Shown piece by piece: positions 6,120 to 54,412 of a stretch of 64,000 bases of DNA; the first letter of the stretch is position 1, and every line of letters starts with the position of its first letter. The position numbers and the translations under genes were made by a program. The notes under the pieces are model-generated. The model ran no database searches. It was given only the letters and a program-made list of their open reading frames with translations, and was not told the DNA's origin. The stretch comes from Actinomadura nitritigenes. Lineage in GTDB: Bacteria > Actinomycetota > Actinomycetes > Streptosporangiales > Streptosporangiaceae. The DNA lies in assembly GCF_017573545.1 (NCBI RefSeq), contig NZ_JAGEOK010000005.1, positions 248,001 through 312,000 on the forward strand, in the 5' to 3' direction.

Positions 6120-6728
6120 ATGGGGCGAGAATCCGGAGGCCGGCCCTCCGAGGCGCGCGACCGCCTGCTCGGCACGGCGACGAGGATCTTCTACGCGGAG
6201 GGGATCCACTCGGTCGGGATCGACCGGATCGTCGCGGAGGCGCGGGTGACGCGGGCCACTCTCTACCGGCACTTCCCCGGCAAGGAAGACCTCATCCTCG
6301 CCTATCTGGACGAGGTGGACCGGGCCATGCGCGCCCAGGTGGACGATGCCGTCGCCCACGGGCTACCGGCGGCCGACACCATCCGGGCCATCGGCGAGTC
6401 CATCGCGCAGGGCATCCGGTCCCCCGATTTCCGGGGATGCGCCTTCCTGAACGCCGCCGCCGAATACCCCGACCCCGATCACCCCGTGCACAAAGCCGTG
6501 ATCGCCCACCGGCAATGGTTCCTGGACACCGTGACCGAGTTGCTGGCGCGCATCCGGAAGACACCTGCCGAACTCGCTGCACGGCATTTCGTGATGCTGC
6601 GTGACGGCGCCATGGCTTCCGGTTGCCTCTTCGACCCGGAACTGGTCTGCGAAACCTTCCTGCGCGGGGTCGACGGCCTGTTGGAGGCCCATGCCGAAGC
6701 AGGCAGGCGGGGTCCGGCGCCGGCCTGA
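6120..6728 (+). CDS. TetR-family transcriptional repressor
   Basis: A 202-residue TetR regulator. The N-terminal helix-turn-helix is plain: RDRLLGTATRIFYAEG, then VGIDRIVAEARVTRATLYRHF, with the LYRHF motif near residue 50, followed by a divergent ligand-binding domain (GCAFLNAAAEY region) of the type found in small-molecule-responsive repressors. The ATG has no ribosome site; TACGAT ends six bases before it, so the mRNA is probably leaderless. It is divergent from the DUF308-like gene and shares the paired GAACGTTC operators with it. The inducer is unknown. Confidence 0.9.
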   Translation: MGRESGGRPSEARDRLLGTATRIFYAEGIHSVGIDRIVAEARVTRATLYRHFPGKEDLILAYLDEVDRAMRAQVDDAVAHGLPAADTIRAIGESIAQGIRSPDFRGCAFLNAAAEYPDPDHPVHKAVIAHRQWFLDTVTELLARIRKTPAELAARHFVMLRDGAMASGCLFDPELVCETFLRGVDGLLEAHAEAGRRGPAPA

Positions 6729-6854
6729 ACATCCGAGGCGCCGAGGACGTTTCTCGGTCTGCGCAACGGTCGGGATGACCTGCCGGGACATCGGCACCGA
6801 ATGGAAATTCCCCGCCATTGCGGCTCTCTTCAAGCGGCCGGATCGAAACGGTGA

Positions 6855-6883
6855 GCGCCCGCCGCGGGAGCCGCGACGGGCGC
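6855..6883 (+). terminator. Hairpin downstream of the TetR gene
   Basis: GCGCCCG (6855-6861) pairs with CGGGCGC (6877-6883). Inside, CGCGG pairs with CCGCG around a GAG loop, leaving one mismatch. It is 127 bp after the TetR stop and may end that transcript. Confidence 0.5.
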
Positions 6884-6890
6884 ATCCGTC

Positions 6891-6913
6891 CCGCCGGCCT
6901 CGTCAGCCGGCGG
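6891..6913 (-). terminator. Hairpin downstream of the sugar-binding lipoprotein gene
   Basis: A perfect 8-bp stem (CCGCCGGC at 6891-6898 with GCCGGCGG at 6906-6913) around a 7-nt loop, 16 bp beyond the stop of the binding-protein gene. It lies between two converging genes and could work in both directions. Confidence 0.6.
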
Positions 6914-6929
6914 CCCTACGCCGTTCCGG

Positions 6930-8057
6930 TCACTGGATTCCGGCGTCCTTGCACTTCGCCGCGTAGGCGCCCTTGCACAGATCCGCGGCCTTGACGAACC
7001 CGTCGGCCACGACCTGCTTGACGTTGTCCTTGAAGATCCCGATCGGGGTGAGCAGCACCGAGGGCACGTCCCGCTTTCCCTGCGGGTCGTTCACGGTGGC
7101 GCTGGTCTCGCCCTTCTGGCCCTTCAGCAGGGAGATGGCGAGCTTGGAGGCGGCGTCGGCCTCCTGCTTGACGGGCTTGTAGACGGTCATGCACTGGGTG
7201 CCGTCCAGGATGTTCTGCAGTCCCTGGAGGGTGGCGTCCTGCCCGGTGACCGCGACCTTGCCGCCCTCCTGGTTCTTCTTGGCCACCGCGATCGCGGCGT
7301 TGCCGAGGTTGTCGTTGGCGGCCAGCACCCCGTCGATCTTGCCGTGCTGCTCGGTCCAGATCTGCTCGAAGATGGTCGCCGCCTTCTCCGGCTTCCAATC
7401 GGGGACCGCCTGTTCGGCCACCTTCTTGTAGCTGGAGACCTTGTCCAGGATGTTGTGCGCGCCCTGGGCGAAGAGGGTGGCGTTGTTGTCGGTCGGCGAG
7501 CCATTGAGGTAGGCGATGTTGGCCGGCTTGTCGCCCAAGCACTTCTGCAGGCCCTTGCCCAGTTCCTCGCCGACACGGACGTTGTCGAAGGAGACGTAGT
7601 AGTCCGACACCCCGCCCAGCGTCAGCCGGTCGTAGTCGATCGTCTTGACGCCCTGCGACCGGGCCTTGCGCTGCACGGCCGCCGCGGAGTTCGAGTCGAG
7701 TCCCGTCACCAGCAGCACGCTTACCCCGCTCGTGAGCATCTGGTCGGCGATCGTCTGGAACCGCTGGGTCGAGCCCTCGGCGTTCTGGATGTCGTACTGG
7801 ACGCCCGCCGTCTTGAACGCCTGCTCGAGGTACGGCCGGTCGAAGCTCTCCCACCGGGTGGACGAGGTCGTGTCGGGCAGGATCACGCCGACCTTGCCCT
7901 TCACCGCCCCCGACCCGGAACCGCCCTTGGAATCGTCGTCCGAATTCCCGCACGCGGAAAGGGTCAGCGCCGACGCCGCCGCCAATGCGGTCAGGCCGGC
8001 CATCCCTCTGCGGAGGAGTGTCCGCCTCACGAGCAGCGTCGATGTGTTCTCGCGCAC
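6930..8057 (-). CDS. Sugar ABC transporter substrate-binding lipoprotein (XylF/ChvE-like)
   Basis: A 375-residue periplasmic-binding-protein type 1 lipoprotein. The signal ends in a lipobox (TLSACGN, Cys near residue 36) and is followed by a Ser/Gly/Asp linker. The mature part opens with KVGVILPDTTSSTRW, and contains LLVTGLDSNSAAA, NIAYLNGSPTDNNA and DGVLAANDNLG, all typical of D-xylose and other pentose-binding proteins. It would capture a monosaccharide at the membrane for an ABC importer, but no ATPase or permease gene lies on either side. The start is GTG, with GGAG six bases upstream. The promoter is TTGACG-N18-TACAGT on the minus strand. It is divergent from a ROK regulator, the usual control partner. 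The sugar is inferred, not proven. Confidence 0.87.
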   Translation of the reverse strand: MRENTSTLLVRRTLLRRGMAGLTALAAASALTLSACGNSDDDSKGGSGSGAVKGKVGVILPDTTSSTRWESFDRPYLEQAFKTAGVQYDIQNAEGSTQRFQTIADQMLTSGVSVLLVTGLDSNSAAAVQRKARSQGVKTIDYDRLTLGGVSDYYVSFDNVRVGEELGKGLQKCLGDKPANIAYLNGSPTDNNATLFAQGAHNILDKVSSYKKVAEQAVPDWKPEKAATIFEQIWTEQHGKIDGVLAANDNLGNAAIAVAKKNQEGGKVAVTGQDATLQGLQNILDGTQCMTVYKPVKQEADAASKLAISLLKGQKGETSATVNDPQGKRDVPSVLLTPIGIFKDNVKQVVADGFVKAADLCKGAYAAKCKDAGIQ

Positions 8058-8109
8058 GTCAACTCCAGGGGGTGGAGCCAGGCCTCCGTCAGGCCGTCGG
8101 CTTTGCTGA

Positions 8110-8139
8110 ACTGTAGGAACGCAGGTTAATCAGCGTCAA
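8110..8139 (-). promoter_or_regulatory. Promoter of the sugar-binding lipoprotein gene
   Basis: On the minus strand, -35 TTGACG (complement at 8134-8139) and -10 TACAGT (8110-8115) are separated by 18 bp. This leaves about a 50-nt leader before the GTG start at 8057. Confidence 0.6.
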
Positions 8140-8168
8140 GAACGAATAAGGCCGGAAACGGCCATAGT

Positions 8169-8198
8169 TTGTACAGAGTCCGGATAAACCTCTAGGGT
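8169..8198 (+). promoter_or_regulatory. Promoter of the ROK regulator gene
   Basis: TTGTAC (8169-8174), 18 bp, then TAGGGT (8193-8198), seven bases before the GTG start at 8206, suggesting a leaderless message. A small GGCCG-GAAA-CGGCC hairpin (8150-8163) lies between this and the divergent promoter. Confidence 0.5.
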
Positions 8199-8205
8199 CG
8201 GCACC

Positions 8206-9435
8206 GTGGACGACGCTCCCGGCTCCCTCACCTCGCTGCGCTCGCGCAACCGGCTGCTGGTCATCGATGCCGTCCGGCGGCACGGCCGGATCAGCAGGGT
8301 CGACATCGCCCGGGCGACCGGCCTGTCCCGGACCACCGTCTCCGGCCTCGTCACCGCGCTCCTCGCCGAGGGCGTCCTGACCGAGTCGGCCGACGGAGCG
8401 GTCCCCTCGACGGCCCGGGGAGGTCGTCCCGCGACCCCGCTCACGCTCAATCCCGAGGGCGGCGGGCTGCTCGGCGTGCACCTGCGCCACACCGACGTCC
8501 GCGTGCTGCTGGCCGACCTGTCCGGCGGCGTCCTGGGCGAGCACCACCGCGAGATCGACGTCGACCACCGTCCGGACGAGGCCCTCGAGTTCATCGCGGA
8601 CACCGCCCTCGACCTGGTCGCGACCGTGGGACGGGACGCCGGGCGCATCTTCGGCATGGGCGTCGCGGTGTCGGCGCCCGTCCAGTCGCGCTCCCACACA
8701 CTGAGCCTGCCGTCCATGCTGTCCGGCTGGACCGACGCCGACATCGCGGCGCATCTGAACAGGCGCATCGGCCTGCCGGTGCACGTGGGGAACGACGCCA
8801 ACCTGGGCGCCCTCGCCGAATGGACCTTCGGCGCCGGACGCGGCGTGGACGACCTGATCTACATCATGCTGTCGGACGGCGTGGGCGCCGGGCTGATCCT
8901 GGACGGCCGCTCGTACCAGGGCGCCACCGGGACGGCGGGCGAGCTCGGCCACATCGCCGTGGTCGACGGCGGCTACGTCTGCCGCTGCGGGAACCGGGGC
9001 TGCCTGGAGACCGCCGTGGGGGCGCAGGCGCTCACCGCCGCCTTCTCCCGCACGCGAGGTCCGGACACCACGATCACCGACGTGGTGGCCCTGCTCGCCG
9101 CCGACGATCCGGGAGCCCGGCGGGTGGTCACCGACGCCGGCCGCATGGTCGGCCGGGCGCTCGCGGGCATCTGCGCGATGCTCGAACCACGGATGGTCGT
9201 CGTCGGCGGGCAGGTCGCCGCGCTCGGCCGTCCCCTGCTCGACGGGATCCGCGAAGTCCTGGGCGACCGCCTCCCCCCGGCGATCAACCAGGGCATCACC
9301 GTCACCGGGAGCGTTCTCGGCGACCGCGCCGAGGTGTTCGGGGCGATCGTCCTCGCGACCCGTCAGACGTCCGCCCGCCTGCTGGCGCCGCACTTCGACC
9401 GCACACCCCCGGATGCCGGGAGCGGGCGCGGGTGA
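8206..9435 (+). CDS. ROK-family transcriptional regulator (NagC/XylR type)
   Basis: A 409-residue ROK repressor. Residues about 15-65 form the MarR-like winged helix (SRVDIARATGLSRTTVSGLV). The rest is the ROK sugar-kinase fold, with HVGNDANLGALAEW, a GTAGELGHIAV segment and the zinc motif CRCGNRGCLE near residue 265. Such proteins bind a sugar and release DNA, usually next to the sugar transporter they control. Here that would be the divergent XylF-like lipoprotein gene 148 bp away. The GTG start is weakly supported by an AGGG, and the -10 lies seven bases upstream, so the message may lack a leader. The effector sugar is unknown; a pentose would fit the neighbour. Confidence 0.9.
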   Translation: MDDAPGSLTSLRSRNRLLVIDAVRRHGRISRVDIARATGLSRTTVSGLVTALLAEGVLTESADGAVPSTARGGRPATPLTLNPEGGGLLGVHLRHTDVRVLLADLSGGVLGEHHREIDVDHRPDEALEFIADTALDLVATVGRDAGRIFGMGVAVSAPVQSRSHTLSLPSMLSGWTDADIAAHLNRRIGLPVHVGNDANLGALAEWTFGAGRGVDDLIYIMLSDGVGAGLILDGRSYQGATGTAGELGHIAVVDGGYVCRCGNRGCLETAVGAQALTAAFSRTRGPDTTITDVVALLAADDPGARRVVTDAGRMVGRALAGICAMLEPRMVVVGGQVAALGRPLLDGIREVLGDRLPPAINQGITVTGSVLGDRAEVFGAIVLATRQTSARLLAPHFDRTPPDAGSGRG

Positions 9436-41473: not shown

Positions 41474-42988
41474 CTAGACATGTCCAGTGGCATACGGCGA
41501 GCCCGCTGCGGTCCGCGCACCTCGTGCCTCCAGGCGCGCGCGCAGGCGCAGGCGCCCCGGGTTCACGCCGGCCGCGTGCATGATGCCGCAGAGGAACAGC
41601 GCCAGCCAGCACAGCGCGGCGGGCGCCGATGTCACTCCCTGCCCGTCGGTGGTCGTCAGGATGAGCGCGACGACCGCGACGGTCAGGACCCCGTACGCCG
41701 CGGCCGCGATCAGCCAGGCGCGGTGCCGGTGCCGGACGCCGATGTAGAGGAACGCGCCCCAGGTCAGGAAGCCCAGCGCCAGGGCCGGCGCCATCCATAG
41801 GCTGTGCAGGATCTTCCAGCCAAGCCCGTGCCGGGTCATCGCCGCGTCTTCGGCCGGCGCGTAACCCGGCACGCTCTGGCCCGGCACGCTCTGGCCCGGC
41901 ACGCTCTGGCCCGGCACGCTCTGGCCCGGCACGCTGTAGCCCGGTGGGGACGTCATGGACGTGGGGCCCTGAGGTGGCATCCGGGACGAGGTGCCAAGAG
42001 GCATGAAGCCCGTGGGCAGAGGGGGCGGGCCGGACGTTGGTACGGGACCCGCCTGGGCCGGCCCCTGGTCGGCACCGGCGAGCCGGGTCAGGACACGGGC
42101 GTGCAGGTGCATCCCCGTCGGTCCGGCCGCCGCCGGGGCGATCTCACCGAGCGGATGCGCGCGTTGCACGAACCCCAGGAGCCGCTCGTAGGTTTCGCGG
42201 GCGTCCGCCGGGCGTTGCCGCGGATCCTTGGCGAGCAGCCGGCGGACGAGTTCCTCCAGGTCGGGCGGGACGTCGGCGCGACACAGCGGCGCCGGTTCCT
42301 CCTCGAGGTGCTTGTAGCCGAGCGCGTGCGGCGACGTCGCCGTGAACACCGGACTCCCGGCGAGCATCTCGTAGACGACGCAGCCCAGCGCGTAGAGGTC
42401 GGTGCGCGGGGTGGCGCGCTCGTTGCGCAGTTGTTCGGGCGCCATGTACGCGGGCGTGCCGACGATCTCACCGGTGCGGGTGATGCGGACGACCCCGGCG
42501 GCGTCCAGGACGGTCGCCACTCCGAAGTCAAGGACCTTGACCGTCGCGTCCCGGGTCACCATCAGGTTCTGCGGCTTGATGTCGCGGTGCACGAGCGAGC
42601 GGCCGTGCGCGACGGCCAACACCGAGCAGACCTGTGCGGCGATCGCGGCCGCCCACGGGACGGGCAGCGGTCCCTGCTCGGCGACCAGGTCCGCGACCGT
42701 GCAGCCGTCCACCAGCTCCATGACCAGGAAGAGGCCGTCGTCAGAGGAGCCCGCGTCGTGCACCGCCGGGACTCCGGGATGCTGCAGGCCCGCGGTGAGC
42801 GCCGCCTCCTGCACGAAGCGGCGCACCAGCCTTCCGGGGTCCGGCCAGCGGGCGAGGGCCTCGTTGGTGAGCAGCTTCACCGCGATCCGCCGCTCCAACT
42901 GCCGGTCGACCGCTTCCCATACCTGGCCCATGCCGCCCCGGCCGAGCGGCGCGACCAGCTCGTAGCGTCCCCCGAGCAGCTGCGTCAC
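41474..42988 (-). CDS. Ser/Thr protein kinase with C-terminal membrane domain
   Basis: A 504-residue PknB-type Hanks kinase. The kinase domain (residues 1-270) has GRGGMGQVWE (P loop), AVKLL (ATP-anchoring Lys), HRDIKPQN near 134, DFG near 153 and GTPAYMAPEQ. A Pro-rich juxtamembrane linker with five SVPGQ/Y repeats (about residues 350-375) connects to a C-terminal domain with three or four hydrophobic helices and no PASTA or other sensor repeat. The kinase presumably signals from the membrane. The GTG start has GGAGGGG eight bases upstream; an ATG 39 bases further up (43027) is not needed. A DNA methylase gene lies 101 bp upstream on the same strand; a functional link is not established. Confidence 0.92.
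   Translation of the reverse strand: MTQLLGGRYELVAPLGRGGMGQVWEAVDRQLERRIAVKLLTNEALARWPDPGRLVRRFVQEAALTAGLQHPGVPAVHDAGSSDDGLFLVMELVDGCTVADLVAEQGPLPVPWAAAIAAQVCSVLAVAHGRSLVHRDIKPQNLMVTRDATVKVLDFGVATVLDAAGVVRITRTGEIVGTPAYMAPEQLRNERATPRTDLYALGCVVYEMLAGSPVFTATSPHALGYKHLEEEPAPLCRADVPPDLEELVRRLLAKDPRQRPADARETYERLLGFVQRAHPLGEIAPAAAGPTGMHLHARVLTRLAGADQGPAQAGPVPTSGPPPLPTGFMPLGTSSRMPPQGPTSMTSPPGYSVPGQSVPGQSVPGQSVPGQSVPGYAPAEDAAMTRHGLGWKILHSLWMAPALALGFLTWGAFLYIGVRHRHRAWLIAAAAYGVLTVAVVALILTTTDGQGVTSAPAALCWLALFLCGIMHAAGVNPGRLRLRARLEARGARTAAGSPYATGHV
41865..41939. repeat. 15-bp minisatellite inside the kinase gene (5 copies)
   Basis: The unit CCCGGCACGCTCTGG begins at 41865, 41880, 41895, 41910 and 41925. 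The first four are identical, and the last is slightly diverged. On the coding strand each unit encodes Ser-Val-Pro-Gly-Gln or its Tyr variant. The unit is a multiple of three, so copy-number change would lengthen or shorten the linker without breaking the frame. Confidence 0.9.
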
Positions 42989-43089: not shown

Positions 43090-44988
43090 TCAGTCGTCGG
43101 CGACGTCCAGCTCGCCCGCCGCGACACCGTCCGCGAGGAGCCGGCCCATCTGCTCGGTGAGGGCGATGCCGTCACGCGCGGCGGAAGCGACGCGGTCCAT
43201 CCGCCGGAACGCCTCTCCGTACCGGCGCTGCTGCTCCAGAGGAAGCCGCGGCACACGCGCACGGTGGACGTCCACCCGGCTGCCCGTCGACGACAGGGCC
43301 GACGACCGCACGTTGGCGGTACTGCGCAGGACGCCCGCCAGGAAGTACGGGTCGAGCTCCTCCGGGTCGACCCTGACGAGCGACAGCTGCGGGCCGAGCA
43401 GCAGACCCTCGCGCTCCACCACCCGCGCCGCGAACCGGCGGGAGGCCACCGCCACAACGATGTCGCCGGTGCGCGTGAGGAGCCAGTCCTCCTCCGCGCG
43501 GTCGAGGACCCGTCCGGTCGGCTCGCGGTCGTGGATCACGTCCTCGGCGGTGAGCATCGGCCGCCCCGCGCCCGTCTCGGCCGCGTCCCTGCGCGCCGGT
43601 GCCCGGTGCACGGTCAACGCGCCGACCCGGGCCAGTTCCGCGACGGAGGTGACCGCCGGTTCCCGATCCCGCGTCGCGGGTCCGAGGTCCGGCACCAGCC
43701 CGGACATCTGCCCGAGCAGCGCGGTCAGCCGGTCGCGCGTCTGGACGAACCGCTCGGCGGTCCGCTCCCCCGTGCCGGCGGCCAGGTGCCGCGCCGGGGT
43801 CAGGTCGACGTCCTCGTCCAGCAGGTCGATGATCGGCACGATCCGGCTCGTCCCGGGCCGGTCCACGTCGCGGCCGGCGTGGAAGTCCCGCCAGGTCCGG
43901 ACGATCTCCGCGCCGTCCGCGCCGTCCACGCCGTCCACCACCAACAGCCCGGACGGCCGGTCGCCCGACGGCCTGCGCAGCAGCCACAGATGGGGGCCGT
44001 CGGGAAGCGCGACCACGGCGCGCAGCGCGCCGCGTCGCAGCAGCTGCGTGCGCATGCGCCGCCCCGAACGCCGCCCCGCCACCGCGGGCGGCATCAGCAG
44101 GACCGCGAGCCCGCCGGGGACGAGATGCGCGAGGGCGTGCTGCGCCCAGGCCAGTTCCGGCTCCATGCGGGGCGGCAGCCCGTACTCCCACCGCGGGTCG
44201 GCGGTGAGCTCCTCGTGGCCCCAGTACCGCTCGTTGAACGGCGGGTCGCACACCACCGCGTCCACGGTGAGGCCGGCGAACGCGTCCTGCCGCAGCGAGT
44301 CCCCGGTGCGGATGTCGGCCGGGGTGCCGCGCAGGGCGAGCCGCGTCCCGGCCAGCGAGGCGAGCACCTCGTCCCGCTCCTGCCCGACGAGCCGCCGCTC
44401 CGCACCGCCGGACGGCGCCGGCAGCGCCGACAGCAGTTCGCCGGTCCCGCACGCCGGGTCCAGCACCGACCGCGCGTCCGGGTCGACCAGCCCGGCGATG
44501 AGCGCGGCGAGCTGCGGCGACGTCAGCGCCATCCGGGGCAGTCGGACTTCCAGGTAGCGCTCGACCAGGAACTCGAACGCGCGGGCAGGGCCCCACGCGC
44601 CGGACAGTTCGTCCACGGCCCTCAGCAGCGGCACCGACCGCTGGTCGACGCCCAGCCGTTTCGCGGCCGACCGGTCGCTCAGCCCGCCGAGCGGGATGCC
44701 GGCGCGCTGGCAGGCCCCCACCTGCCGCAGGACGGCGCCGAGCTCGCGTTCGTCGCCGGCCGCGCGCAGCAGCTGCCACGCCCGCTCCTCCGGAGGGGTC
44801 TCGACGAGCTTGCCCTGGTCGCGCAACCACGCCTCGACCTCGGCCAGCGAGAACACGGGGCTGGTCGGGGTGCCGCCGATGGGCTGCGGAAAGTCGGGAT
44901 GGCGGCGCCGCCAGTTGCTGACCGCCGCCCGGCTCACCCGGACGAGCCGGGCGATGTCCGACGTGGTCACGGTGGCGTCCTCGCGCAC
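43090..44988 (-). CDS. N-6 DNA methyltransferase with HTH and specificity-like domains
   Basis: A 632-residue fusion. Residues about 5-65 hold a MerR/AlpA-like helix-turn-helix (SDIARLVRVSRAAVSNWRRRHPDFP, then a SLAEVEAWLRDQG-type recognition turn). The N6-adenine methylase domain has motif I LDPACGTGELL near 175 and motif IV CDPPFNERYW near 246. The C-terminal 190 residues resemble an HsdS target-recognition module (RTGDIVVAVASRR, DPYFLAGVLRST, VPRLPLEQQRRYGEAFRRMD). No restriction gene is nearby. The GTG at 44988 has AGGAGG six bases upstream; an ATG at 45003 is possible. It may be an orphan methylase that sets an epigenetic mark, or part of a defence system. Confidence 0.85.
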   Translation of the reverse strand: MREDATVTTSDIARLVRVSRAAVSNWRRRHPDFPQPIGGTPTSPVFSLAEVEAWLRDQGKLVETPPEERAWQLLRAAGDERELGAVLRQVGACQRAGIPLGGLSDRSAAKRLGVDQRSVPLLRAVDELSGAWGPARAFEFLVERYLEVRLPRMALTSPQLAALIAGLVDPDARSVLDPACGTGELLSALPAPSGGAERRLVGQERDEVLASLAGTRLALRGTPADIRTGDSLRQDAFAGLTVDAVVCDPPFNERYWGHEELTADPRWEYGLPPRMEPELAWAQHALAHLVPGGLAVLLMPPAVAGRRSGRRMRTQLLRRGALRAVVALPDGPHLWLLRRPSGDRPSGLLVVDGVDGADGAEIVRTWRDFHAGRDVDRPGTSRIVPIIDLLDEDVDLTPARHLAAGTGERTAERFVQTRDRLTALLGQMSGLVPDLGPATRDREPAVTSVAELARVGALTVHRAPARRDAAETGAGRPMLTAEDVIHDREPTGRVLDRAEEDWLLTRTGDIVVAVASRRFAARVVEREGLLLGPQLSLVRVDPEELDPYFLAGVLRSTANVRSSALSSTGSRVDVHRARVPRLPLEQQRRYGEAFRRMDRVASAARDGIALTEQMGRLLADGVAAGELDVADD

Positions 44989-45153
44989 GTCCACCCTCCT
45001 CATCTGCGACTCCGACACCCTATCGCCCGCCCGGATGCGTGTCGCCACAATCGAACCACTTGTTAGTCGAGTTAACACGTGCTGTACTTGGCGACGCGCC
45101 GAACACGTGATCGTGTCGGCGTTCCACGACGACGCCCCTCCGGAGGTTCCGCC

Positions 45154-45636
45154 ATGCCGTCCCTGCGCCCCGCCGTCCCGCTCGCTGCGATCGCCACCCT
45201 GGCCGGCGCCGTCCTACTGACCGGGTGCGGCGGCGGCAAGGACGACAACGGCCCCAAGAGCAGCGGCGCCACCTCGACGGCCGCGGGCGCCGAGCCCGCC
45301 GGCTCCCCCAAGAGCACCGCCGCCGCGGCGGCCTACCACGACCCGATGGACATCGCCAAGAAGATCCGCGGTGCGCACCTCGGCTGCACCAAGGCCACTC
45401 GGACCGAGTCGCTGGGCAGCGGAAAGGTGATCTGCGGCGGCACCGCCAACATCAGCATCGAGTTCTACGAGACGCCGAGCGCCTTCCTCGAGGTCAAGAA
45501 GACCATCTGCCAGATGGGCGTGGCCGCGACCATCGTCGCCGACCCGGGACGGCGCTGGATGGTCACCTCGCTCAACACCGGCGTGAACAAGCGCATCCAG
45601 CGGGCGGTCGGCGGCAAGGTGGTCAAGACCTGCTGA
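45154..45636 (+). CDS. Small lipoprotein of unknown function
   Basis: A 160-residue exported lipoprotein. The signal ends in LLTGCGGG (Cys near residue 25), followed by an Asp/Ser/Gly/Ala linker of about 35 residues and a compact domain with CTKATRTESLGSGKVICGGTANISIEFYET and a final KVVKTC. Cysteines in the mature part suggest disulphides. I do not recognise the family; short lipoproteins of this layout are abundant in actinomycetes and mostly uncharacterised. CGGAGG precedes the ATG. It is divergent from the methylase gene and converges on the following hypothetical gene. Confidence 0.72.
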   Translation: MPSLRPAVPLAAIATLAGAVLLTGCGGGKDDNGPKSSGATSTAAGAEPAGSPKSTAAAAAYHDPMDIAKKIRGAHLGCTKATRTESLGSGKVICGGTANISIEFYETPSAFLEVKKTICQMGVAATIVADPGRRWMVTSLNTGVNKRIQRAVGGKVVKTC

Positions 45637-53274: not shown

Positions 53275-54312
53275 TCATGACCCGTTGAAGGCCGCTGGGC
53301 CGTCTCCTTGCGTGCCCACTCCCCAGATGCCGCCGGCCACGGCGGCGAGGTCGTGCACGTCGGTCCCGGCAGGGATCGTCACCGCCTCCCACTTGCCGCC
53401 GCTGTAGCGGTACGGGGGCTCCTCGGGTGGCGCGGACGCTTCCGCCACGACCCAAGGGGTCCCGGACGAGTCCACGGTCAAGTCGCCGAGGTCGGGGAAC
53501 CCTGCCGCGGCGGCGATGTAGGTCCACGCGGTGCCGTTCCAGTGCGCCAAACGCTTGGCCGTGATGCCCCAGACGTCGTTCGCGGCGACCGGGACGACCT
53601 TGCGGAACCAATCGTTCTCGGTGACAGCGGGCAGCGGGACGCTCTTCCAGGCGGCGCCGTCGAAGTGCGCGACGGCGGGCACCTGCTGCAGGCCGTCCTT
53701 GTAGCCGACCGCCCATGCGTCGGACGCGGTGAGCGCCTGAAGGTCGGCGACGTAGTCGACTCCGGGCACGTTGACCGCGGTCCAGGTATCACCGGTGCGC
53801 TTGAACAGCCCGTTCCCGGAATCCAAGTCCCAGGCGCTGGCGAAGGTGCCGGCCGCGCCGGTGACGAGCGTGGTGACGTACTTGGCCGGAGCCGCCACCT
53901 GCTGGAACGCCGAGCCGTCGAAGCGCGCCATGTAGGTGCTCGAACTCCCGCTGGCGCTCGGTCCGCCGGCGATCCAGGTCTCGCCCGCACCCGAGGCGAT
54001 CCGCGCGATCTCGCCCTGGCCCGCCCAGCCGTTGATCGGATACTCCTTCCATGCGGAGCCCACCCGACGCCGCACGACCGGGTTCCCGTCGTTGTACACG
54101 GGGCACAGGTCGCCCCAGCGGAGGCAGTACTTGCCCTGTACGCCGCCGACCCAGACACCGCCCGCGCCGTCGGCGGTGACGTCGTAGAGCCGGGCCGTCG
54201 GCCACAGGAAGGGCAGGGAGACCGTGCGCAGTTCGGGGGCGGCCGCGAGGGCGGGTGCGGGAAGAGACGCGAGGGCGGCGACGGTGGAGATGACCGCGAT
54301 GACACGTTTCAT
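53275..54312 (-). CDS. Secreted beta-propeller-like protein
   Basis: A 345-residue exported protein. The signal peptide is MKRVIAVISTVAALASLPAPALAAAPE. The mature part is built of repeated blocks of about 45 residues ending in a glycine: VWVGGVQGK, WIAGGPSASG, SAWDLDSG, DAWAVGYKDG, DVWGITAKRLAHWNGTAWTYI and GIWGVGTQG, in the pattern (A/V)W-x-x-G ... W(K)-x-x-x-x-P of actinobacterial surface beta-propellers. Ligand unknown. The ATG at 54312 follows GATAGT by six bases and lacks a ribosome site, suggesting a leaderless start. The gene is transcribed toward the YciI gene and is not obviously part of an operon. Confidence 0.75.
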   Translation of the reverse strand: MKRVIAVISTVAALASLPAPALAAAPELRTVSLPFLWPTARLYDVTADGAGGVWVGGVQGKYCLRWGDLCPVYNDGNPVVRRRVGSAWKEYPINGWAGQGEIARIASGAGETWIAGGPSASGSSSTYMARFDGSAFQQVAAPAKYVTTLVTGAAGTFASAWDLDSGNGLFKRTGDTWTAVNVPGVDYVADLQALTASDAWAVGYKDGLQQVPAVAHFDGAAWKSVPLPAVTENDWFRKVVPVAANDVWGITAKRLAHWNGTAWTYIAAAAGFPDLGDLTVDSSGTPWVVAEASAPPEEPPYRYSGGKWEAVTIPAGTDVHDLAAVAGGIWGVGTQGDGPAAFNGS

Positions 54313-54412
54313 GTGAGCACTATCCAACGGCCGCCAAAAAAACACCAGTGTCTACTGGGATGATCCCGGCCCCGGCCGCTCCGCGTCCGACTCCGCGGCG
54401 GCGAGGAGCCGC

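Follow-up and report, generated by a model that had tools for sequence, protein, structure and literature searches.

The stretch of Actinomadura nitritigenes DNA analyzed here (hereafter the window, 64,000 nucleotides) encodes a single protein that combines a helix-turn-helix (HTH), an N6-adenine methylase and a part resembling a target-recognition domain (TRD), directly followed by a Ser/Thr protein kinase, and this methylase and kinase constitute a conserved two-gene module. With a probability of roughly 0.55, we consider the module to be regulatory, comprising a methylase-derived, self-regulating DNA-binding protein, the HTH of which would act on a repeat in its own operon, and a kinase that would serve as the input. 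The putative operator-like motif shared by the upstream regions of the family is a new observation.

The methylase gene is located at positions 43090 to 44988 on the minus strand and encodes 632 aa from a GTG start, as judged from the list of open reading frames, Pfam, a comparison of starts and a structure model. The GTG at 44988 is supported by an AGGAGG just 5' of it and by the same start having been called in an 81% identical homologue (L032); the longest open reading frame begins further upstream, at 45078, and comprises 662 aa, the numbering of which is used below. The HTH (residues 37-88; 44815 to 44970, minus strand) was assigned from Pfam and from family conservation: its score against HTH_17 is 20 bits, under the 27-bit cut-off, yet it is nearly invariant across the family (one comparison behind this near-invariance also omitted L072, L074 and L075). 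The methylase core (residues 167-360; 43999 to 44580, minus strand) matches N6_Mtase (PF02384) with an E value of 3e-27, and its motifs are intact, with motif I (DPACGTG) at 207 and motif IV (DPPF) at 278. A TRD-like, fast-evolving part and a C-terminal helix, assigned from profiles and the model, follow at residues 441-655 (43114 to 43758, minus strand). A first-pass annotation of this DNA had described a fusion of an HTH, an N6-adenine methylase and an HsdS-like end at 43090-44988; the coordinates, the HTH and the methylase were confirmed, and for the HsdS-like end the profile matches are weak (PADLOC mad5, E 2e-4; Specificity_I, E 0.003).

An AlphaFold model built from a four-sequence input (mean pLDDT 70, with the TRD stretch partly below 50) predicts an N-terminal HTH, a helical stretch, a methylase fold and a long C-terminal helix. 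The best PDB matches of this model by Z were type I M subunits, namely 3khk and PacII (Z 27, over about residues 64-406), and in a comparison with the intact type I methyltransferase of V. vulnificus (7eew), residues 68-557 were aligned at an rmsd of 28.9. According to the model, one single TRD at the C-terminal end is likely. The closest named homologue is found in Actinomadura sp. K4S16 (81%). The protein family is already annotated through the PADLOC profile MTase_I, which matches the HTH plus methylase (348 bits over 34-370), without a regulatory role.

The kinase gene (41474 to 42988, minus strand; 504 aa, GTG start) lies 101 nt downstream of the methylase on the same strand, as had been claimed, and Pfam and its motifs identify a Hanks-type Ser/Thr kinase (Pkinase, E 2e-47; AVK, HRDIKPQN, DFG and APE all found). 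Hydrophobic segments at 400-418, 426-444 and 457-475 were flagged in its C-terminal part by a crude scan, which also flagged two stretches inside the kinase domain. The absence of a restriction partner was likewise borne out, with no nuclease among the nearest genes by Pfam and no HsdR among the window neighbors. These nearest genes encode, by Pfam, a DeoR regulator, a rhamnosidase and a LysR protein, together with two small open reading frames without Pfam matches. The DeoR regulator and the rhamnosidase lie on one side of the pair, and a lipoprotein-like gene, a small open reading frame, LysR and a transporter (by sequence look) lie on the other, the genes beyond the nearest neighbors being judged from their translations only. 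The window copy of the pair is solo and stands outside any defence island.

Conservation was analyzed in 115 family members, including that of the window, each scoring more than 300 bits against the family profile and originating from the same genus, the rest of the class or three named records; as the loci were taken by score, they are not a random sample. Genes were called with our own script trained on nine window genes, and the starts are approximate. L132 (same score as L034), L117 (same place as L072) and L035 (a fragment) were left out of the 115, the truncated L072 and L074 were kept, and seven family genes missed by the gene caller (L075, L172, L192, L206, L207, L222 and L224; six-frame scores of 478-826 bits) also fall outside this set.

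A same-strand kinase was found within three genes downstream in 60 of the 115 members and upstream in one. By position, same-strand kinases were present at +1 in 38/114, at +2 in 16/112 and at +3 in 6/108 members, and at -1, -2 and -3 in 0/114, 1/114 and 0/107, respectively; an opposite-strand kinase was found at +1 in 4/114 members, and the background among genes five or more away was 4/570. When the members were clustered at 60% identity, 17 of 36 clusters contained a downstream kinase. By eye, five of the seven missed members (L075, L192, L206, L207 and L222) are accompanied by a same-strand kinase at +1 or +3, and adding all seven gives 65/122. In a mirror-tree comparison, the distances between methylases and between kinases were correlated (r 0.81 for 60 pairs; r 0.78, p 0.0005, for 30 pairs from the own genus together with L032 and L034). 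In a midpoint-rooted kinase tree, one clade (0.992) comprised 57 of the 60 partners, including the window kinase, along with 12 other kinases from the loci; of the further kinases of the source genome, in which kinase matches number 74, the 29 best-matching ones all fell outside this clade. The excess over background (60/115 vs 4/570), the partner clade and the correlation of distances rule out that the kinase is a random neighbor. The window kinase both belongs to this clade and directly follows its methylase, which places the window pair within the module of HTH-methylase-TRD protein and kinase. The remaining 55 members lack a same-strand kinase within three genes, and one of them, L036, belongs to the same cluster as the window member. 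In L116, a kinase closely related to that of the window occurs with no family gene in the 19.5 kb examined. The first-pass annotation had suggested a co-occurrence analysis of the two genes and had counted a lack of conservation of the kinase against its idea; the kinase proved to be retained by roughly half of the members, a frequency that far exceeds the background, and this objection fails.

The partner kinases differ in their C-terminal parts. Bare kinases of about 300 aa account for 10 of the 60, and most of the other aligned partners have a longer, helical-repeat C-terminus that is TPR-like by eye; L071, the sole one examined by Pfam, gave no TPR match. The membrane part of the window kinase was considered as a hallmark of the module and rejected, as L032 alone among the aligned partners has the same part; strong matches to it (E about 1e-22) were found in 2 of 58 other genomes, once without an adjoining family gene. 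A divergent gene called at 45154 to 45636 (plus strand), which encodes a lipoprotein-like protein of 160 aa and is common to the window and L032, found no support as a constant part of the module: a lipobox, by a crude rule, was present in 9/84 divergent neighbors vs 28/761 others.

The upstream regions of 66 non-redundant members were searched for shared motifs with a 21-bp weight matrix, and 1012 promoters from the same loci served as controls. TGTGAAC and AGTCAAC/AATCAAC were strongly enriched in the 66 regions, and 13 pairs were placed at exactly 9-bp spacing. The resulting operator-like motif, TGTGAACnnARTCAAC, exceeded 10 bits in 55 of the 66 members vs 54 of the 1012 controls, in a comparison in which training and test promoters overlap. 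In held-out tests, a matrix from the 13 promoters of family f20 (loci sharing clusters with the Streptomyces klenkii locus L033) found 33 of the 53 others (controls 5.9%), and a matrix from these 53 promoters found 11 of the 13 (controls 5.7%). When the window, L032 and L036 were held out, all three still scored. The scores of L032 and L036 were each equalled by 18 of the 1012 controls and that of the window by 29, so that the window site, taken alone, is just in the top 3% of controls.

In the window, the operator-like site is an inverted repeat, TGTTA-N7-TAACA (45061 to 45077, not assigned to a strand), located between the divergent genes and 73-89 nt upstream of the methylase start. TGTKA-N7-TMACA occurs at three places in the 10.6-Mb source genome, the window site being one of them, and the reversed control occurs at one. 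A candidate methylase promoter, GCGACA-17-TAGGGT (45017 to 45045, minus strand), is predicted from its consensus match, and its offset from the operator-like site is the same in L032 (TCGACA-17-TAGTGT). A single fixed spacing between operator and promoter was sought across the family and was not found. With regard to a possible wider regulon, two more sites were found in the source genome, one of them a weak match. The other is an operator-like palindrome near 6159 of L229 (G000:C28), upstream of the gene (6387-9062) for an 891-aa DUF4132 protein; within the window, a weaker match to the motif (15.9 bits) is located at 54310-54330, near where the minus-strand gene 53275-54312 starts.

The fixed pattern TGTGAAYNNRRTCRAC was sought in 59 genomes. 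Of the 31 genomes that match the family strongly (E below 1e-60), 22 contain it, as against 2 of the 28 without such a match (p 6e-7); within the same genus, the counts are 22 of 29 and 0 of 7, respectively. Its 39 occurrences include 36 in genomes with a member; the source genome lacks the pattern, its own site being the TGTTA variant. A fairer count, which leaves out the 18 of the 39 sites that stand directly before a family gene (the source on which the pattern was trained), gives 14/31 vs 2/28 (p 0.001), and 14/29 vs 0/7 in the same genus (p 0.03). In addition, the 2.33 Mb of loci contain 129 matches of at least 15 bits, of which 97 have a family gene start no more than 300 nt away, 31 occupy other intergenic positions and 1 falls in a gene, with the reservation that the training set overlaps here.

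We tie this site to the HTH-methylase protein because of its placement before DrmA in members embedded in DISARM operons, its covariation with the HTH and its presence before other genes in the loci. Among the 11 promoters under 10 bits, six belong to members inside DISARM operons. In four of the eight DISARM operons scanned (L199, L200, L201 and L204), a site scoring at least 14.4 bits stands before DrmA, a score reached by at most 24 of the 1012 controls; weaker palindromes of 9 bits, a score reached by 62-67 controls, precede DrmA in L059 and L064, and no site was found before DrmA in L069 and L221. The type of HTH tracks the site, with proteins of the VGRAAV type mostly associated with TGTGAACnnARTCAAC and those of the VTRATV type with TGAAAGCnnnGTCAAA-like sites. 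The partial correlation between site and HTH given the methylase core was 0.28 (p 0.001), with kinship only partly removed, and weaker, non-zero correlations were obtained between site and core given the HTH (0.14) and between site and TRD given the core (0.13). Sites were also found before a PD-(D/E)XK nuclease cluster (L043, L044, L067 and L166), a large kinase-containing cluster (L047 and L070), a DrmD gene (L046), PP2C genes (L055 and L058) and, in L233, a gene that is lipoprotein-like by sequence look.

The genomic contexts of the family were compared over genes -4 to +5, with Pfam and PADLOC run on one or two examples per neighbor cluster and the other loci labelled by BLAST clustering. 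The pair occurs alone (as in the window), behind DrmA-DrmB-DrmC, with HsdM/HsdR, with DrmD/DrmMI-like genes and with a PP2C phosphatase. DrmA/DrmB clusters are found beside 8 of the 115 members (in L069, DrmA scores 958 bits, DrmB 240 and DrmC 357), HsdM beside 16, HsdR beside 13, PP2C beside 15 and a DrmD-like helicase cluster beside 8, six of which have a DrmMI/type IIG-like gene. L046 contains both DrmD (1394 bits) and DrmMI (1695 bits), and the helicase of L118, which belongs to the same cluster as that of L046, matches DpdE (1251 bits) better than DrmD (290 bits). In f20, the methylase, a small gene and the kinase often occupy one conserved place. Apart from the kinase, the commonest neighbor cluster spans only 20 loci, and thus no other gene is a constant companion. 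The earlier idea of a defence module gains from the DISARM, type I restriction-modification (R-M) and DrmD/DrmMI-like contexts of the relatives and loses from the solitary position of the window copy.

Several of these arrangements are described here in their own right. DISARM-like operons followed by the HTH-methylase are found in L199, L200, L201, L204, L059, L064, L069 and L221; they contain DrmA and DrmB, with DrmC in seven of the eight, and motif IV of the HTH-methylase is non-canonical in six of the eight. A PP2C gene adjoins the methylase and a bare kinase of ~300 aa in L048, L049, L055, L058, L173, L174, L179, L189, L190 and L214, and PP2C without a downstream kinase occurs in L051, L052, L054, L056 and L060. 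Proteins of ~2090 aa belonging to one cluster are encoded in L118 (1979-8272), L128 (2400-8666) and L130 (10954-17226); that of L118 consists of a Ser/Thr kinase joined to a DEAD helicase that bears an MZB domain, and in all three loci a DpdE/DrmD-like helicase cluster follows, along with a DrmMI/IIG-like gene in L118. These large proteins resemble a YprA/DrmA-like protein with an added kinase. By sequence look, the source genome also has a separate HsdM-like gene (L231, G000:C34, 8772-10256) followed by an HsdS-like gene and, at a greater distance, by SWIM- and MoxR-like genes.

Across the family, catalysis appears to be optional and DNA reading does not. The recognition helix VSNWR[RK] is invariant in all 109 members with letters at these positions. 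Motif IV is canonical ([DNS]PP[FYW]) in 60 of the 114 members with letters there, the 115th having a gap, and deviant in 54 (HPPF 24, APPF 6, GPPS 3, and others); in one 14-member cluster, all with kinases, H occupies the first place of motif IV in 14/14. The presence of the kinase does not track the state of this motif (34/60 canonical vs 25/54 deviant members). Motif I is mostly retained, the HTH is the best conserved part, and the TRD is the fastest evolving part apart from the linker. As judged from known N6 methylases, H, A, T, G or V in motif IV is expected to abolish activity. According to the ARMADA paper, an N-to-A change in NPPW abolished protection (PMC12458937). Catalysis looks lost in many relatives, in which only a DNA-reading role can remain.

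By analogy, the best reading is that of a regulator derived from a type I M-S protein, often catalytically altered and similar to M.SsoII in action. The HTH would recognize the short repeat that lies in the operon's own promoter (45061-45077 in the window) and repress or activate this operon, and in relatives the same site would also front DISARM and other defence genes. In response to a signal, the partner kinase would probably phosphorylate either the regulator or a partner bound to it and thereby alter DNA binding, the HTH being released or retargeted. The kinase would be a natural input, as its catalytic domain appears to co-evolve with the methylase and its C-terminal part differs between members, some having hydrophobic segments, others repeats that look helical by eye or a fused helicase, and others no such part. 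Because its methylase motifs are intact, the window copy may act as a methylase as well, in which case its two functions would compete, as they do in M.SsoII. The first-pass annotation had offered an epigenetic regulator as one of its options; we retain the regulator, now predicted to act through the HTH and the operator-like site rather than, or besides, through a methylation mark.

M.SsoII has been described as repressing its own gene through an N-terminal domain that recognizes a 15-bp palindrome, with binding and methylation excluding each other (PMC6100179). The window protein resembles M.SsoII and M.Ecl18kI in that an N-terminal HTH regulatory domain is fused to a DNA methylase, and it resembles M.SsoII in that a palindromic site, known here from sequence, is located in the intergenic region of its own system and is rare elsewhere (PMC6100179). 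However, M.SsoII, a type II enzyme that methylates cytosine at C5, has a restriction partner (PMC6100179), whereas the protein described here, with its match to N6_Mtase (PF02384, E 3e-27), is an N6-adenine, type I-like M-S fusion and not a C5-cytosine methylase. It also differs in its Ser/Thr kinase partner and in a motif IV that is often degenerate in the family.

Alternatively, the pair might be a compact defence system, a version of PGL or of MADS (methylation-associated defence system) cut down to two genes. The methylase would then label the host's own DNA, and phage DNA lacking the label would trigger the kinase, which would serve as an abortive effector or as a sensor. We regard this as unlikely. 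As in MADS, an HTH, an adenine methylase, a specificity part and a kinase are found in one locus, the PADLOC matches following the order mad1 (HTH), mad2 (methylase) and mad5 (specificity) along the protein, with mad6 for the kinase; the best PADLOC profiles of the kinase are those of PD-T4-6, a kinase defence family, and the defence genes beside relatives and the intact motif IV of the window copy also fit. However, the HTH, methylase and specificity part are here fused in one protein, the scores are far below the curated MADS cut-offs (MAD2, 15.3 of 720 bits; MAD6, 151.9 of 460 bits), and PADLOC gave no other mad matches in the two small neighbor open reading frames or the DeoR gene. PGL and BREX type 2 likewise combine a kinase and an adenine methylase (PMC12839542). 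The first-pass annotation had been reminded of PGL while holding that the kinase is not of the PglW type; the latter holds, since the kinase reaches 66.8 of 990 bits against the PglW model, over its kinase part only, and the likeness to PGL fits poorly, as no PglX, PglY or PglZ was found among the seven genes around the pair by Pfam or among five of them by NCBIfam and PADLOC. A system that depends on self-marking is also at odds with the deviant motif IV in 54/114 members, which the presence of the kinase does not follow, and with the position of the window copy between sugar-use and transporter genes. Finally, swapped TRDs would be expected under an arms race, but swapping was not seen among close pairs: no family pair above 0.74 core identity has a TRD identity below 0.4, and such TRD values occur in 77 of the 386 pairs above 0.65 core identity. 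That the protein is an orphan adenine methylase writing an epigenetic mark, with the HTH helping in targeting and the kinase merely tuning it, is in our opinion improbable; DPACGTG and DPPF are present and the modelled fold is best matched by type I M subunits (Z 27), but conservation is far stronger in the recognition helix than in the catalytic motif, H begins motif IV throughout one all-kinase cluster, and conserved sites stand at operon starts.

The motif might also belong to another regulator, such as a CRP-like one, or be partly a promoter, with the HTH-methylase as just one target. TGTGA-N6-TCAAC resembles a CRP-type site, and one half of the motif (TTGAC) resembles a -35 box and is often placed as one for the divergent gene in many loci. 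Nevertheless, three places in 10.6 Mb and 39 pattern copies in 59 genomes are too few for a global regulator, the palindromic copies measure 17 bp rather than 16, the site covaries with the HTH, and no other gene is a constant companion, the commonest non-kinase cluster occurring in only 20 loci; we therefore hold this explanation to be very improbable.

The regulatory reading leaves the window pair distinct from the systems found beside its relatives. It shares with type I R-M an HsdM-like methylase fold with motifs I and IV (3khk; PacII M1M2S, 7vru/7vs4; 7eew) but differs in the added HTH, the absence of an R subunit at the window and a score of 17.9 of 242.75 bits against TIGR00497 hsdM. 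Some relatives share a locus with the DrmABC genes of DISARM (PMC9142583), whereas no DrmA or DrmB lies beside the window gene. Similarly, some relatives have DrmD and DrmMI of ARMADA, or the kinase-helicase-MZB fusion followed by DpdE/DrmD- and DrmMI/IIG-like genes, and none of these lies beside the window pair; the word kinase is absent from the main text of the ARMADA paper (PMC12458937). By the features tested, the window pair is outside the M.SsoII type, MADS, PGL, DISARM and type I R-M, and its predicted mode of action is that of a regulator-methylase, one that in relatives is coupled to such systems. The pair of HTH-methylase and kinase was not described in the titles or abstract beginnings of the literature searched, which mostly did not extend to subscription papers.

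A wider reading, which we put forward tentatively and consider possible but doubtful, is that actinomycetes harbor a family of transcription factors derived from methylases, about half of which have probably altered or lost their catalysis. Together with a Hanks-type kinase and sometimes PP2C, these factors would form a phospho-signalling control unit that can be exchanged between defence systems and serves DISARM, ARMADA-like, type I R-M and PD-(D/E)XK nuclease genes; in this unit, the TRD and methylase would read DNA, the kinase would carry the alarm, and the HTH would switch the operon via one conserved site. How defence islands are switched on is a largely open question, and to our knowledge, few actinomycete Ser/Thr kinases have known targets. 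If this reading is right, one regulator-kinase pair and one operator would be readable across many actinomycetes and would predict co-regulated defence operons; some of the many Ser/Thr kinases of actinomycetes would gain a testable role, and the family would illustrate how an enzyme that writes DNA marks can turn into a protein whose sole role is to read DNA.
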